Position numbers and translations under genes: made by a program. A DNA stretch of 64,000 nt from Rhodoblastus acidophilus (GTDB lineage Bacteria; Pseudomonadota; Alphaproteobacteria; Rhizobiales; Beijerinckiaceae), in NCBI RefSeq assembly GCF_900187365.1, contig NZ_FYDG01000001.1, positions 744,001 through 808,000 on the forward strand, in the 5' to 3' direction. Shown one piece after another: positions 2,795 through 19,491 of the stretch; within the stretch, counting starts at the first letter, position 1; each line of letters begins with the position of its first letter. The notes beneath the pieces are model-generated. The model made no database searches, was not told the DNA's origin, and saw only the letters and a program-made list of their open reading frames with translations.

Positions 2795-4033
2795 CTACTT
2801 CCCTTTCGCCGCGCGCAGGGCGGCGACGATCTTGTCGATCTTGTACGGCTTGCCCACGATGGGCTTGCCGGCGAAAGCCAGCGGCAGGTCGAGATCGTCG
2901 CCATGGCCGCTGGCGAACACAAACGGCTTGCCGCGCGCCTCCAATTGCTCGGCGACCGGGATCACATTTTCCCCTCCCAGCGTGTAGTCGAGCAGAGCGG
3001 CGTCGAACGTCTCGTCGAGCGCGTCCAGCGCCGCGCTCACCGTGCCGCAAATGCGCACCACCCGCGCGCCGGCTTCATCGAGCGCCGCGGCGAGTTGCGT
3101 CGCCACCATGTGCTGGTCCTCGACGATCAGCACGCTGAGAGGGTCCGCCGGGGCGTCCGGCGCCCAGGGCTGGTGATGCGCGGGCAACACCAGCCTGAGA
3201 CGCAGGGCCAGAGCTTCCGCAAACAGCTCGAGTGCGCCGCGCAGCCCCAGGCCGGGGAAGCGCGGCTGGCGGCCCAGCCCGACGATCAACGCCAGCCGCA
3301 AACCGTCTGACGCCACCGGCAGGAAAGCCGCCGAGCGGAAACCCGCCTCGCGCAGCCATTGCCGCAAGGGCTCGCCAGGCGCGCGCAGGGCGGTCATGCC
3401 GGCGTCGAGCGGCAGCATGTCCGGCTCCGAGCGCAAGGGAATTTCGGGAGCGTCGACATCGCCGACGGCGAACAGCCGCCGGCCCGGCCAGAACGCCTGC
3501 AGGCTTTCCGGCGCGGGCGGCGGCGCGCCGAGACGCCGATAGGCCCCGGCCAACCGGGCGTTGTCCGCCTCCAGCAACAGGAAAAACGTGTGCTCGGCGT
3601 CGAGCGCGGCGCCCACGAGCATGGCGGCGCGCTTGCCGATTTCGTCGGGACCGGCGAGATCGTCGAGCCGGTCGATCAAAGCGGCGGCGCGGTCGAGCGC
3701 GGCGAGGCCGCTGTGGGCGTCGCTCATTTCGAGCTCCAGCACCATGTCCTCGCCGTTGAAATGAACGGCGGCGTCGAACGCGCCTTCCACGCCGGGAAAA
3801 CGGCACCCCGACACCAGAGCCGGGCGCGCCGGCGCGGAAAAGCGCGACAGCAAGTTGCGCAGGCGGTGCGATTCCTCGGAACCGAGCAGTTCGCGCAGGC
3901 GCGCGCCGAGCAAAGGCCCGGCCTGCGGGAAAATATCCCCGAGATTGGCGGAATGTCGGCGCACGACACGCGCCTGATCGTCGCATGCGATCAGCCACCC
4001 GTGAGTCTGGATCGCCTCGCCCGGCGCCGCCAT
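2795..4033 (-). CDS. degenerate phytochrome-like PAS-GAF protein fused to a receiver domain
   Basis: The 412-residue product has three parts. Residues about 5-110 match the phytochrome PAS_2 fold (AIQTHGWLIACDD resembles the IQPHG start of bacteriophytochromes). Residues about 125-280 resemble a phytochrome GAF domain. Residues about 292-410 are a response-regulator receiver with the acidic pair (VEDQ), the phospho-acceptor Asp in ALLDYTLGG and the conserved Lys in VGKPYK. The bilin-attachment Cys that precedes PAS_2 is absent, the GAF DIP motif is missing, and there is neither a PHY domain nor a kinase. It probably acts as a phosphorylated partner of a separate histidine kinase. I chose the ATG at 4033 because AAGGA lies at good spacing; another ATG at 4048 has no ribosome-binding site. 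Confidence 0.8.
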   Translation of the reverse strand: MAAPGEAIQTHGWLIACDDQARVVRRHSANLGDIFPQAGPLLGARLRELLGSEESHRLRNLLSRFSAPARPALVSGCRFPGVEGAFDAAVHFNGEDMVLELEMSDAHSGLAALDRAAALIDRLDDLAGPDEIGKRAAMLVGAALDAEHTFFLLLEADNARLAGAYRRLGAPPPAPESLQAFWPGRRLFAVGDVDAPEIPLRSEPDMLPLDAGMTALRAPGEPLRQWLREAGFRSAAFLPVASDGLRLALIVGLGRQPRFPGLGLRGALELFAEALALRLRLVLPAHHQPWAPDAPADPLSVLIVEDQHMVATQLAAALDEAGARVVRICGTVSAALDALDETFDAALLDYTLGGENVIPVAEQLEARGKPFVFASGHGDDLDLPLAFAGKPIVGKPYKIDKIVAALRAAKGK

Positions 4034-4108
4034 AGCAAGTCCTTCCATTGCCGAGCCGTGACTATAGCGCGAAATCCGTCCACGACCAGAGCGGAGTTTA
4101 CCCCAAAT

Positions 4109-5092
4109 TTACCCGCGTATGCCTACCCGCAGCCCCGGCGCCGGACGTTCCTGCAACACTTCGCGGCGAAAACGGAACAAGGCGGCGGGTCGGCCGCCGG
4201 TGGCGTGCGACATCTGGCCGGTCGCTTCCACCACGGCCGAGGCCTCAACCAGACGGCGAAAATTCTGCTTGTGCAAATGCCGGCCCGAAATCGCTTCGAC
4301 CGTGGTCTGCAATTCCGTCAGGGTGAAACTTTCCGGCATCAGCTCGAAAATCACCGGGCGATATTTCAGCTTGGCGCGCAGCCGCCCCATGGCGGTGGCC
4401 AGAATGCGGCGATGGTCGGCCTGCATGCTTTCGCCGAGCCTTGGATTTTCGGAAAATCCCGGCGCGGGGTCGCGGCCGTCGCGCACGCTTTCCTCGATCA
4501 GCCCCGCCTCATAGAGCAGTTCATAGCGGTCGAGCACGTTTTCCTCGTCGAAACGCTCGCCCTCGTCGCCGAACAGGGCGCGGACGCGCTCGACGCGGGT
4601 CAGACCGCGCTTCAGGCCCGTCCCCTCGCCGCGCGCCACCAGCGCGCGCAAACCGGGCATGATCACGCTGTCGAGCAAGGCCGGCCGGCCCTGCCGCCAG
4701 TCTTCCCACGGGAAAAACCGATACCATTCGGCGAAGCCGGCGCCCGGCGCGATCACCCGCCCCGCCCCGGACAGACGGGTCAGCGCGAGATAGCCGACCG
4801 ACACCACATGGGGATCGCGGCTGTCGGCGCGGCTGTGGCGCCCGCGGTCGCCGAACGTATAGAGCTGCTCGACATAGCCGACCGGGGCGCCGGTCTGTTC
4901 GGCGACCCAGCCGCGCAGGCCGATCTCGAACGTGCGATGGTTGACCGGGTCGAACGGGCCGGAGGGCAAGGCCGCCGCCGCCGCGCCGGTCGCCGCCCGC
5001 GCCACCAGGATCAGCGGCGCGTCGCCGCGCAGCGCGACAATCGCGGCGGTGAGGTTGATTTCGACGGCGATGGGCGGGCGCGCCTCGTTCAT
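4109..5092 (-). CDS. NrtR-like NUDIX-domain transcriptional regulator
   Basis: The 327-residue protein has a NUDIX-fold N-terminal half (about 10-170) and a C-terminal winged helix (about 235-310, including LPESFTLTELQ-type spacing, FRRL and GRPAALFRF). This is the NrtR layout, in which the NUDIX domain senses ADP-ribose or NAD intermediates and the winged helix binds DNA. The NUDIX box is degenerate: the catalytic REUxEE becomes RGWVAEQ. This fits a sensor rather than a hydrolase. The longer open frame to 5467 runs antisense-like into the neighbour; the ATG at 5092 has GGAG eight bases upstream. The HD nucleotidase gene lies 94 bases upstream on the same strand. The target genes are not evident from the window. 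Confidence 0.8.
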   Translation of the reverse strand: MNEARPPIAVEINLTAAIVALRGDAPLILVARAATGAAAAALPSGPFDPVNHRTFEIGLRGWVAEQTGAPVGYVEQLYTFGDRGRHSRADSRDPHVVSVGYLALTRLSGAGRVIAPGAGFAEWYRFFPWEDWRQGRPALLDSVIMPGLRALVARGEGTGLKRGLTRVERVRALFGDEGERFDEENVLDRYELLYEAGLIEESVRDGRDPAPGFSENPRLGESMQADHRRILATAMGRLRAKLKYRPVIFELMPESFTLTELQTTVEAISGRHLHKQNFRRLVEASAVVEATGQMSHATGGRPAALFRFRREVLQERPAPGLRVGIRG

Positions 5093-5186
5093 ACCGTCTC
5101 CATACCGAACATCCCGCCTCCGTAGCAATCGGCGCCGCGCCGGATCGCGACCCTCAGCCTTTGGCGCGACAATAGCGTGTCGCCCA

Positions 5187-5801
5187 TCACAGCCGCCCCT
5201 CGATTTCAGCGAATTTTTGCAGGAAGGCGGCCTGCGCCGCCTCGGGCGCGACCGCCGCGAACAGCGGCGCGACCCGCTCGAAGGCGAAGTTCGGCGCGCC
5301 AAACAACGTTTTCGCCTCGCCCACGTCGAAACCGGCGTAAAGCGTGGCTTCGAAATAAGCGGAAATCCGATCGGCGCGCTTGGTGAGCCGGGCCAAGGCG
5401 GCGGGCGGTTCGGGCTTGAGCGCGAACCGCTGCAGGATCGCCTGCGCCAGCCGCGACTCCACCTCATGATAGACGCCGCCCAACGCCGCCTTGAACGGCG
5501 AGATCATGTCGCCGATCACATATTCCGGCGCGTCGTGCAGCAGGGCGAACAACAGCCAGCGCGCCGGCGCCGCCGGCTCGATCAGCGCCACAATGTCCGC
5601 CACCGCCACGGAATGCTGGGCGACGGAAAAGATTTCGCCGCCGCGCGTCTGGCCGTTCCAGCGCGCGACGCGGGCGAGACCGTGGGCGATGTCCTCGATC
5701 TCCACATCGAACGGCGAGGGATTGAGAATGTCGAGGCGGCGGCCCGACAACATGCGCTGCCAGGCGCGCGGCGGAGCTTCCCGCGACGGCCCGCCGTTCA
5801 C
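5187..5801 (-). CDS. HD-domain hydrolase, YfbR-like 5'-nucleotidase
   Basis: The 204-residue HD-superfamily phosphohydrolase carries the metal ligands in order: RVARWNGQ, then H in FSVAQHSVAVAD, then the HD pair in FALLHDAPEYVIGD, with a later Asp in KRADRISAYFE. This matches YfbR-type enzymes that dephosphorylate deoxynucleoside monophosphates. The GTG at 5801 overlaps the tag stop codon (GTGA) and has GGAG eight bases upstream, so translation is coupled to tag. Its position next to an NrtR-like regulator suggests nucleotide or NAD metabolism, which is inference. Confidence 0.82.
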   Translation of the reverse strand: MNGGPSREAPPRAWQRMLSGRRLDILNPSPFDVEIEDIAHGLARVARWNGQTRGGEIFSVAQHSVAVADIVALIEPAAPARWLLFALLHDAPEYVIGDMISPFKAALGGVYHEVESRLAQAILQRFALKPEPPAALARLTKRADRISAYFEATLYAGFDVGEAKTLFGAPNFAFERVAPLFAAVAPEAAQAAFLQKFAEIEGRL

Positions 5802-6412
5802 GGATGCGGCTCCCCCGCGCATTGCGCGTGCCGCCAGCAGTCCACCAGATGATCGTTGACCATGCCCACCGCTTGCATGAAGGCGTAGATGATGGTCGGG
5901 CCGCAGAATTTGAAGCCGCGCCGCTTGAGGTCGCGCGAAATTTTCTCGGACAGCGGCGTCGCCGCAGGAACCTCCGACAGGCTGGCGAAATGGTTGACGA
6001 TCGGGCGACCGTCGACAAAATCCCAAAGGTAGTGGGCGAACCCCTGCCCCGCCTCGATTTCGAGATAGGCCCGCGCGGAGGCGACGGCGCCGGCGATCTT
6101 GGCGCGGTTGCGCACGATGCCCGCGTCCTGCATCAGACTCGCGATCTTGTCTTCGTCATAGGCGGCGATCTTCAGCGGGTCGAACCCATCGAAGGCGGCG
6201 CGGAAATTGTCGCGCTTGCGCAGGATGGCGATCCACGACAGGCCCGCCTGAAACCCATCGAGCACCAGCTTTTCGTAAAGCGCGCGCGAGTCGCGCTCGG
6301 GCGCGCCCCATTCCTGATCGTGATAGGCCAGATAGACCGGATCATGGCCCGGCCAGGGACAGCGCAGCAGGCCATCCTCATGCGAGATCGCGCGTTTCAA
6401 AACTTCGTTCAT
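5798..6412 (-). CDS. tag: DNA-3-methyladenine glycosylase I
   Basis: The 204-residue product matches Tag, which removes 3-methyladenine from alkylated DNA to start base-excision repair. Zinc ligands are visible at both ends: Cys in LRCPWPG and His in LAYHDQEWG near the N-terminus, and His and Cys in NDHLVDCWRHAQC at the C-terminus. The family stretch FQAGLSWIAILRKRDNFRAAF and the catalytic-side region SRDLKRRGFKFCGPTIIYAF are intact. The ATG at 6412 gives the family's usual start. It is the first gene of a tag / HD hydrolase pair, overlapping the next gene by four bases. Confidence 0.95.
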   Translation of the reverse strand: MNEVLKRAISHEDGLLRCPWPGHDPVYLAYHDQEWGAPERDSRALYEKLVLDGFQAGLSWIAILRKRDNFRAAFDGFDPLKIAAYDEDKIASLMQDAGIVRNRAKIAGAVASARAYLEIEAGQGFAHYLWDFVDGRPIVNHFASLSEVPAATPLSEKISRDLKRRGFKFCGPTIIYAFMQAVGMVNDHLVDCWRHAQCAGEPHP

Positions 6413-6547
6413 GCGGTCAGACTTAGAACAAGTCGTCCCAGGAGGAAACCGTTCGGCGCGTCCCCGGAACCAGTGGGGAAGACACGTGTTTCGTTGAATG
6501 CAGGCGCGGGCATGCAGGCTCCGCGTCCGGGTTTCGGAGCCGTGGGC

Positions 6548-6970
6548 ATGTCCCGGAAAATCTCTCTCGTCCTTCTCGCCGCGCTCGCGGTGGCGTTCGG
6601 CCTCGCCTTCGTGATCGCGCCGACCAAGTTCGGCGAACTGATCGGGCTCGATCTCGGGCGCGCCGGCGCGATCGCCGCGCAATTGATGGGGGCGGCGACC
6701 CTGGCCTGGGGCTTGATCCTGTTCGCCGCGCGCCGGTTCGACGAGGAGGCTCGGCGCGCCATCCTGTTCGCCACCGGCCTCGGCGACGCCGTGGCCGCGG
6801 CCGTCGCCGCCGTCGCCGCCCTGTCGGGCCTGATGAATCTGTTGGGCTTCGGCGTCGCCACGATCTGCCTGCTGGCCGCCATGGGCTGCATGGCGGCGCT
6901 GGCCCACCGCCCTGAAGAGTCCAGAAGCGCCCCCGACGAGCTGGAATTGCAGTTGCATAATTACGAATAA
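6548..6970 (+). CDS. small four-helix integral membrane protein
   Basis: The product has about 140 residues with four hydrophobic segments (about 5-25, 40-60, 72-95 and 98-120), a typical DUF4345-like or MAPEG-sized membrane protein; I cannot name the family. I chose the ATG at 6548 because GGAG lies eight bases upstream. Another ATG at 6512 lacks one and would add a proline-rich tail before the first helix. It is followed by an AhpD-like gene 41 bases downstream, so the two are probably co-transcribed. Confidence 0.6.
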   Translation: MSRKISLVLLAALAVAFGLAFVIAPTKFGELIGLDLGRAGAIAAQLMGAATLAWGLILFAARRFDEEARRAILFATGLGDAVAAAVAAVAALSGLMNLLGFGVATICLLAAMGCMAALAHRPEESRSAPDELELQLHNYE

Positions 6971-7011
6971 TCGAATATTTGTTCGCCAACACGCGACAGA
7001 CGAGGTTGGCG

Positions 7012-7371
7012 ATGATTTCCGATTGGCCGCAAGCGACGCAAACCCTGTCCGCCCTGCTGCGCGACCTGCGCGGCGGCGCCGGCTCCAACGAAACCATGAA
7101 GAATTTTTCCGCCCTGGCGCAAAGCGCGACCAAGGCGGGGGCGCTCGACGCCAAGACCAAGGAGCTGATCGCCCTGGCCATTGGCGTGGCGGTGCGCTGC
7201 GACGATTGCATCGCCTTTCACGCCAAGGCGGCCGCGCAGTTGGGCGCGACCCGCGCGGAAGTCGAGGAGACGCTGGCCATGGCGATCTATATGGGCGCGG
7301 GGCCGTCAGTGATGTATTCCAGCCACGCGCTGCAGGCGTTCAACCAGTTTTCGCCGCCCAAGGCGGATTAA
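7012..7371 (+). CDS. carboxymuconolactone decarboxylase family protein, AhpD-like
   Basis: The 119-residue product has the AhpD-like fold, with the active-site pair in RCDDCIAFH (CxxC then His three residues on) and the helix LDAKTKELIALAIGVAV before it. Members with CxxC and a nearby His are typically thiol-disulfide oxidoreductases acting with alkyl hydroperoxidases, while decarboxylases lack the cysteines; a redox role is therefore more likely. The ATG at 7012 has GAGG six bases upstream; a TTG at 6979 is poorer. The stop overlaps the convergent ygfZ stop by four bases. Confidence 0.88.
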   Translation: MISDWPQATQTLSALLRDLRGGAGSNETMKNFSALAQSATKAGALDAKTKELIALAIGVAVRCDDCIAFHAKAAAQLGATRAEVEETLAMAIYMGAGPSVMYSSHALQAFNQFSPPKAD

Positions 7372-8180
7372 GCCAGCCGCAGCACGGTCTCGCCGCTTTT
7401 CAGCGGCAGGCCGGCCTGCGTCGCCTCCTCCACGCGATCGAGCCGCAGCAGGGCGAGTCCGACCCCGCCCGCGCTCGACCCCATGGTTCCCGCCGCTTTG
7501 TCGCCGGCCGTGATCGTCTCCCCCGGCGGCGGCGCGACGCCTTCCAGCAGAACTTTTGTCACGCGGGTGCGAACGGTGGCGCGATAATGCATGCGCGCCA
7601 CCACCTCCTGCCCGACGAAACAGCCCTTCTTGAAATCCACGCCATTGAACAGATCCATGTCCGCTTCGGCGGGAAAGGCGTCGCCATAGGCGAAATCGAC
7701 GCCGCCTTCAGGGACGCCCAGGGCGATGCGATGCGCTGCGTAATCGGCGAGGCCATCGTCGCCGCCGAGGGTCAGCAGCGTCGCATCCGCGCTGGCCGCC
7801 GCCACGATCAGGCGGGCGCCCATATCGGGGTGACGCGAATCCCTGGCCCCTTCCGCAACCGGGCCGCCATAAAGGGCGATCACGGTGGATTTTTCCGTCT
7901 CGTTGGCCACCTCGACCTGGGCGCGCAGCTTGTACATGGTCAGGCGCTTGACCAAATCTGCGGCTTGCTCCGCCTTCACATCGAGCAGAACCGCGTCGTC
8001 GGCCGCGCTCATCAGGAAATCGAACAGGATTTTGCCCTGCGGCGACAGCAGCGCCGCCCAGCGCGCCTCGCCCGGCTCCAACGTCTGGACATTGCCGGTC
8101 ACGAGGCCCTGCAAGAAACCGCGCGCGTCCGGGCCGCTGACGCGAACCAGACCGCGATCGGAGAGTTTGGCTGCTTTCAT
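7368..8180 (-). CDS. ygfZ: folate-binding Fe-S cluster repair protein YgfZ
   Basis: The 270-residue member of the GcvT/YgfZ family has the diagnostic KGCFVGQEVVARM motif near residue 190, with the Cys required for YgfZ function. The N-terminal GcvT-like part includes VSGPDARGFLQGLVTGNV, a typical YgfZ/CAF17 signature. YgfZ uses tetrahydrofolate to help maintain certain [4Fe-4S] enzymes. It is shorter than E. coli YgfZ (326 residues) but normal for alphaproteobacteria. It is divergent from the dihydroorotase gene with a 117-base gap. The suf operon at 34-40 kb supplies the same pathway but is not linked. Confidence 0.92.
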   Translation of the reverse strand: MKAAKLSDRGLVRVSGPDARGFLQGLVTGNVQTLEPGEARWAALLSPQGKILFDFLMSAADDAVLLDVKAEQAADLVKRLTMYKLRAQVEVANETEKSTVIALYGGPVAEGARDSRHPDMGARLIVAAASADATLLTLGGDDGLADYAAHRIALGVPEGGVDFAYGDAFPAEADMDLFNGVDFKKGCFVGQEVVARMHYRATVRTRVTKVLLEGVAPPPGETITAGDKAAGTMGSSAGGVGLALLRLDRVEEATQAGLPLKSGETVLRLA

Positions 8181-18108: not shown

Positions 18109-19491
18109 TCACCCAAACGCCAGGGCGCGCAGCGGCGCCGGCAGGCTTTCGCCCAGTTTCGCCGCCGAGGCGTCGGTGAAAATTCCCGCTCGCTCCAGCC
18201 AGGCGGCAAATTCCGGGGCCGGGGCGAGGTTCAGCACGCGGCGGGCGTAGAGCGCATCGTGGAACGAGGTCGTCTGATAGTTCAGCATGATGTCGTCGGA
18301 ACCGGGAATGCCCATGATGAAATTGACGCCGGCGGCGCCAAGCAGAGTGAGCAGCACATCCATGTCGTCCTGATCGGCTTCGGCATGATTGGTGTAGCAA
18401 ATATCGCAACCCATGGGGACGCCGAGCAGCTTGCCGCAGAAATGATCTTCCAGACCGGCGCGGATGATCTGCTTGCCATTGTACAAATATTCGGGACCGA
18501 TGAAGCCGACCACCGTATTGACCAGCAGCGGCTTGAAGGCGCGGGCCACGGCATAGGCGCGCGCCTCGACCGTCTGCTGATCGACGCCGTGATGCGCCTC
18601 CGCCGACAGAGCCGACCCCTGCCCGGTTTCAAAATACATGACATTGTCGCCGACGGTCCCACGCTGCAGCGACAGCGCGGCGTCGCGGCCCTCCTTCAGC
18701 ACGGCGAGATCGACGCCGAAACTCTTGTTGGCGGCCTCCGTGCCGGCGATGGACTGGAAGACGAGGTCGATGGGGGCGCCGCGGGAAATCGCCTCGATGC
18801 TGGTGGTGACATGGGTCAGCACGCACGACTGCGTCGGGATATTCTGCCGCGAGATGATCTCGTCGAGCATGGCCACCAGCTTCATCACCGCCGGAATGGA
18901 ATCCGAGGCCGGATTGATGCCGATCACCGCATCGCCCGAGCCGTACATCAGGCCGTCGAGCACGGAAGCGGCGATGCCGGCGGGATCGTCGGTCGGATGG
19001 TTGGGCTGCAATCGGGTCGAAAGTCGTCCCTTCAAACCAATGGTGTTGCGGAATTTGGTGACCACGCGGCATTTGCGCGCGACCAGCACCAGATCCTGCG
19101 CCCGCATGATTTTTGACGTCGCCGCGACCATTTCCGGGGTGAGGCCGGGCGCCAAGGCGGCGAGCGCGGCCTCGTCGGCGGCGTCGGACAACAAGAAGTT
19201 GCGGAAGTCGCCAACGGTCAGGTGCGACACCGGGGCGAAAGCCCCGGAATCATGACTGTCCACGATCAGGCGCGTGACTTCGTCCTGCTCGTAGGGGATG
19301 ACCTGCTCGTTCAAAAACGTCTTGAGCGGCAGATCGGCCAAGGCCCATTGCGCGGCGGCGCGCTCGCTGTCGTCCGCCGCCGCGATCCCGGCGAGCGCGT
19401 CGCCGGATCGGGCCGGCGTCGCCTTGGCGAGCAGGGTTTTCAGATCGTCGAACCGAAAACTCCGTCCCCTCACGCTGTGCGCATAGGCCAT
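18109..19491 (-). CDS. eutB: ethanolamine ammonia-lyase large subunit
   Basis: The 460-residue catalytic chain forms a TIM-barrel that binds ethanolamine and coenzyme B12. Conserved stretches include [11 protein letters not shown] near 105, [19 protein letters not shown] near 150, the cap region [20 protein letters not shown] with INPASDS, the [20 protein letters not shown] segment, and [14 protein letters not shown] near 365 (Asp and Asn close to the substrate). The ATG at 19491 has GGAGAG nine bases upstream. It is 14 bases after the permease gene. No carboxysome-like shell genes accompany it. Confidence 0.97.

Follow-up and report, generated by a model that had tools for sequence, protein, structure and literature searches.

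A NadQ Orthologue of Rhodoblastus acidophilus and Its Predicted Operators at nadABC

In the window, which is the whole stretch of 64,000 nucleotides of Rhodoblastus acidophilus DNA that was analysed, positions 4109-6412 are filled by three genes on the minus strand: tag, a gene for an HD-domain phosphohydrolase (hereafter the HD gene), and nadQ. The tag gene (5798-6412) encodes DNA-3-methyladenine glycosylase I; its product scored above the TIGR00624 cut-off (252.4 versus 232.5 bits) and also matched PF03352. The HD gene (5187-5816) belongs to the YfbR-like 5'-deoxynucleotidase superfamily, with 37.2 bits for PF12917 (cut-off 25.9) and 29 bits for PF01966 (cut-off 22); it stayed below the NCBIfam 5'-deoxynucleotidase equivalog cut-off (17.3 versus 122 bits). 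An earlier note on this DNA, made from the sequence alone, had described a nucleotidase and Tag as a same-strand pair beside a regulator, and both are true neighbours that overlap by 19 bp, assuming that the HD gene begins at its first ATG. The third gene, nadQ (4109-5092), encodes a transcription factor of 327 amino acids with a Nudix-like effector domain at the N-terminus (residues about 9-150) and an NrtR-type winged-helix DNA-binding domain (PF21906; residues about 225-315). A degenerate Nudix box region, assigned from an alignment of 34 rows, covers residues 42-66 (LPSGPFDPVNHRTFEIGLRGWVAEQ; positions 4895-4969, minus strand).

The 94 bp gap between the HD gene and nadQ is spanned by a mini-ORF of 32 codons plus stop (5089-5187, minus strand), which starts on the stop of the HD gene (TGATG), ends on the start of nadQ (ATGA), and thereby overlaps both. 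By eye, it is similar in sequence to the C-terminus of a phosphatase-like protein. Relatives have a tyrosine-phosphatase-like gene at this place, and the mini-ORF is probably its decayed remnant; the phosphatase name rests on a Pfam score of 20.0, slightly below the cut-off of 20.9. Among the named matches listed (the best 80 of 584), the closest NadQ comes from a Rhodoblastus MAG. In a Rhodoblastus MAG whose NadQ is 83% identical (L129), the phosphatase-like gene is intact, and in another relative (L130) a remnant with stops is found. A more distant phosphatase-like homologue (47% identity) is located elsewhere in the genome from which the window was taken.

Judged from its sequence and fold, the regulator encoded at 5092-4109 is an orthologue of NadQ (COG4111), an already described repressor of NAD synthesis, and not a new regulator. 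The top PDB sequence match was Agrobacterium tumefaciens NadQ (7q91, phmmer E 1.7e-77), which covered residues 13-323 of the 327 in the query. A structure predicted with AlphaFold2 (mean pLDDT 81.5, pTM 0.84) matched Nudix folds, including NrtR and the NrtR Nudix domain (3gz5, 3gz6, and 3gz8). In the Foldseek ranking, the first 14 places were taken by 14 chains of A. tumefaciens NadQ at 43-48% identity (7q92_D, E 1.6e-32); AraR and NrtR followed at 17-18% identity. According to their PDB titles, 7q91-7q94 are the native, ATP, NAD, and DNA complexes of A. tumefaciens NadQ. The C-terminus of the protein scored 77.8 bits for PF21906 against a cut-off of 27, and the Pfam NUDIX family (PF00293) was not reported for the N-terminal part at E 0.01. 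A homologue in Sinorhizobium meliloti carries the annotation "NAD regulator", and NadQ is described as ATP-responsive in the title of a paper (PubMed 36332744) cited in PMC11452294 and PMC12421817.

The genomic context of the regulator was no help in linking it to nadABC, because nadQ is located on contig C29 and nadABC on contig C44. The genome was searched with the published NadQ operator consensus, ttATRCTCannntGAGYATaa, as it appears in excerpts of PMC5343134. Exactly two exact matches to the core ATRCTCANNNTGAGYAT were found in the 4,711,496 bases of the genome (C44:8789 and C44:8856). They are 67 bp apart and lie directly upstream of nadA-nadB-nadC, three consecutive minus-strand genes (nadA at C44:7693-8577) that all exceed their equivalog cut-offs. 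About 0.01 exact matches per genome are expected from base composition, with a GC content of 0.655, near that of the window, used as the genome value. After the exact pair, the next best sites listed carry two mismatches. With up to three mismatches, 203 sites were found versus 53 with the reversed control; therefore, only exact core sites were used. On L012, the operators are at 5790 and 5857; nadA probably starts at 5773, and they precede this start codon by about 15 to 100 bp. The longest nadA reading frame starts at L012:5845, a start that would place the first operator inside the frame. A looser pattern, ATRCTCNNNNNGAGYAT, gave 12 sites with at most one mismatch versus 3 with the reversed control, and its exact matches were the nadA pair only. 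Two of the ten other one-mismatch sites were inspected, one in the window and one on L004; both lie within reading frames. The site in the window (18854, inside the minus-strand ORF 18109-19491) was taken as a chance match.

The distribution of NadQ and its operator was investigated in 150 genomes of the order. NadQ was matched in 101 of them at E 1e-10; four weak matches limited to the winged helix (G038, G068, G114, and G144) were excluded, which left 97 NadQ genomes, including a few with fragments at contig ends. The nadA gene was found in 105 of the 150 genomes. Exact operators occurred in 54/150, and the reversed-pattern control at 0 mismatches gave zero in the genomes listed. Among the 91 genomes with both NadQ and nadA, 51 carry the exact core no more than 600 bp ahead of the nadA match. 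In the remaining 40, a stretch from 500 bp upstream of nadA to 120 bp inside the gene was scanned; all 12 fixed positions of the looser pattern were present in 28, with one mismatch in 7, two in 4, and three in 1. Thus, an operator at nadA with at most one of the 12 positions wrong was found in 86/91 nadA genomes with NadQ versus 1/14 nadA genomes without it, and 5/91 NadQ genomes with nadA have no nadA site at this threshold. The one positive genome without a NadQ match is G014 (430 contigs), which has an exact operator at nadA; the other 13 nadA genomes lacking NadQ show at least two mismatches. Shuffled stretches reached one mismatch or fewer in 1/800 and 0/280 trials. The Fisher p value for operator versus NadQ presence is 8e-12, a figure that ignores kinship and overstates independence because the counted genomes are related. 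These results show that the published operator and NadQ itself go together across the 150 genomes, and the conserved palindrome near NAD genes of relatives, which the earlier note had proposed to look for, was recovered in the 86 of 91 genomes named above.

The 150 genomes also contain 11 exact operator matches that are not at nadA. Those in G006 (C70) and G115 (C12) are within open reading frames and those in G011 (C24), G059, and G096 were judged by eye to be coding, and these sites were rejected as candidates; further sites are in G031, G074, G109, G114, and G011 (C54). In G131, which has NadQ and no nadA match, a perfect palindrome (L097:3001-3017) precedes an ABC-transporter substrate-binding gene (Peripla_BP_6), and the target is possibly the uptake of a NAD precursor. 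A NadQ match without a nadA match was also seen in G018, G026, G046, G051, and G122; some of the assemblies in this group of six are incomplete.

Taken together, the gene at 4109-5092 almost certainly encodes NadQ, the repressor of de novo NAD synthesis, predicted to act at the nadABC operators; a regulator of R. acidophilus is thereby assigned, with nadABC as its likely target. The earlier suggestion of a Nudix-like protein tied to NAD genes agrees with the Nudix fold of the model and with the operators at nadABC. By analogy with the co-structures of A. tumefaciens NadQ, the Nudix-like domain would bind a nucleotide, either ATP or NAD, and the bound nucleotide would probably be left unhydrolysed. 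Binding may alter the grip of the winged helix on the palindrome ATRCTCannntGAGYAT, and NadQ is predicted to occupy both nadA sites, 67 bp apart, and to repress nadA-nadB-nadC. In this scheme, nucleotide binding, repression, the direction of the ligand effect, and the lack of hydrolysis are extrapolated from the NadQ family.

The Nudix box consensus reads R-E-U-x-E-E-x-G. At these positions the window NadQ has G-W-V-A-E-Q-T-G. The earlier note had stated that the box lost its catalytic glutamates; this is right for R-E and for the second E of E-E, both of which are gone, and not for E65, which is kept. The 34-row alignment comprised 32 relatives plus the window locus, which was entered twice. 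Q66 and E56 occur in 34/34 rows, W62 in 27/34, and E65 in 21/34; across 27 aligned sequences, E56, L59, R60, and Q66 are invariant. Because it is common to the aligned relatives, the loss is a trait of the sampled family and not peculiar to the window protein; it is thus old, which fits a sensor role. A degenerate Nudix box is the normal state in the NadQ family and is no surprise here. The Nudix fold, together with E65, which is retained in the window and 21 of the 34 rows, might be read as a sign of an active Nudix hydrolase that carries a DNA-binding domain as an accessory; with R-E and the second E of E-E missing and Q66 in all 34 rows, this is extremely unlikely. The state of the box bears differently on the earlier proposal of an NrtR-like sensor, namely, an NrtR that senses ADP-ribose and whose Nudix box is dead. 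The NrtR of Mycobacterium smegmatis also has a degenerate motif, and according to the excerpted text of PMC6800001 no hydrolase activity was detected for it, so that a dead box alone cannot separate NadQ from NrtR. The NrtR-type winged helix (PF21906) and the Nudix fold are likewise common to both. However, the protein reached only 76.6 of the 400 bits of the NrtR equivalog, with the best stretch in the C-terminal domain; its match to NadQ over residues 13-323 is far better than that to Shewanella NrtR (E 4.3e-9), and the operator found is that of NadQ. Membership in NrtR was rejected on these grounds, and we consider it very improbable that the regulator is anything of this kind.

NadQ as a regulator of nadABC has also to be weighed against a regulator of its own cluster, which would tie the HD nucleotidase and Tag, and with them the nucleotide pool and alkylation repair, to the NAD state. 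The neighbourhood invites such an idea: the gene order Tag - HD phosphohydrolase - phosphatase-like - nadQ is conserved in many relatives (L108-L127 and L129-L208), and 70/97 NadQ genomes have a same-strand HD gene no more than 3 kb upstream of nadQ. In 25/97 the HD gene is farther off or on another contig, and 2/97 gave no match. From named genomes, 80 nadQ loci were collected (the top 80 among 584 confirmed matches), 7 of which had too little upstream DNA; within 3 kb upstream in the 73 usable loci, the HD gene was found in 69, the HD gene together with the tyrosine-phosphatase-like gene in 68, and Tag in 57. The operators tell against local control. No NadQ operator with at most one mismatch was found in window 3500-7500, which holds the nadQ cluster; the best match there has two mismatches and lies at 4425, inside nadQ. 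Of the best 80 of 584 matches, the 66 whose loci reached 6 kb or more were scanned over their first 3 kb. In 65 of these, the roughly 3 kb preceding nadQ contain no operator at a tolerance of one mismatch, the exception being L158. Autoregulation or local regulation by NadQ was therefore rejected for window 3500-7500; a palindrome before the regulator gene itself, which the earlier note had proposed to look for in relatives, is present at this threshold in only 1/66 of them. Moreover, the HD gene is not confined to genomes with NadQ; it is present in 140/150 genomes, that is, in 95/97 with NadQ and in 45/53 others. The lack of an operator in the cluster and the broad presence of the HD gene argue against a single circuit for NAD, nucleotides, and repair, and the earlier idea of linked nucleotide, NAD, and DNA-repair control finds no backing in them, though a shared function by other means is possible. 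Nothing here beyond the shared gene order supports a link between DNA repair and the control of NAD, and a regulator devoted to the local cluster is highly unlikely.

Of interest to specialists, nadQ is accompanied by genes for an HD phosphohydrolase and a phosphatase-like protein that do not share its operator. Conceivably, the HD - phosphatase-like - nadQ order has a function. The phosphatase, or the HD enzyme with a possible activity on a purine nucleotide or one related to NAD, would then determine which ligand or phosphorylation state is read by NadQ; what NadQ reports would be a processed nucleotide signal and not bulk ATP or NAD. We regard this as an unlikely explanation.

Among known systems, the R. 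acidophilus protein resembles A. tumefaciens NadQ (7q91-7q94) in sequence and fold over nearly the full length, in the degenerate box, and in the winged helix, and it shares with the NadQ family the published operator at nadABC. It differs from A. tumefaciens NadQ in sequence (43-48% identity), in the location of its gene on a contig other than that of the nad genes, and in the tandem operator pair at nadA. Shewanella oneidensis NrtR (3gz5/3gz6) shares the Nudix fold, the winged-helix type, and the regulation of NAD genes; it is set apart by the 17-18% identity in the fold alignment, by the NrtR family cut-off that the window protein does not reach, and by its effector, ADP-ribose. Bacteroides thetaiotaomicron AraR (5bs6, 5dd4, and 5deq) has a Nudix-like domain and the same type of winged helix at a similarly low fold-alignment identity (17-18%), whereas its ligand is L-arabinose, as the title of 5deq states, and it controls arabinose use. 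NadQ-like proteins also occur on plasmids: 268 plasmid records contain them, 177 from Rhizobium, with every best place below 60% identity, and among the 20 listed, several bear no annotation beyond hypothetical protein.
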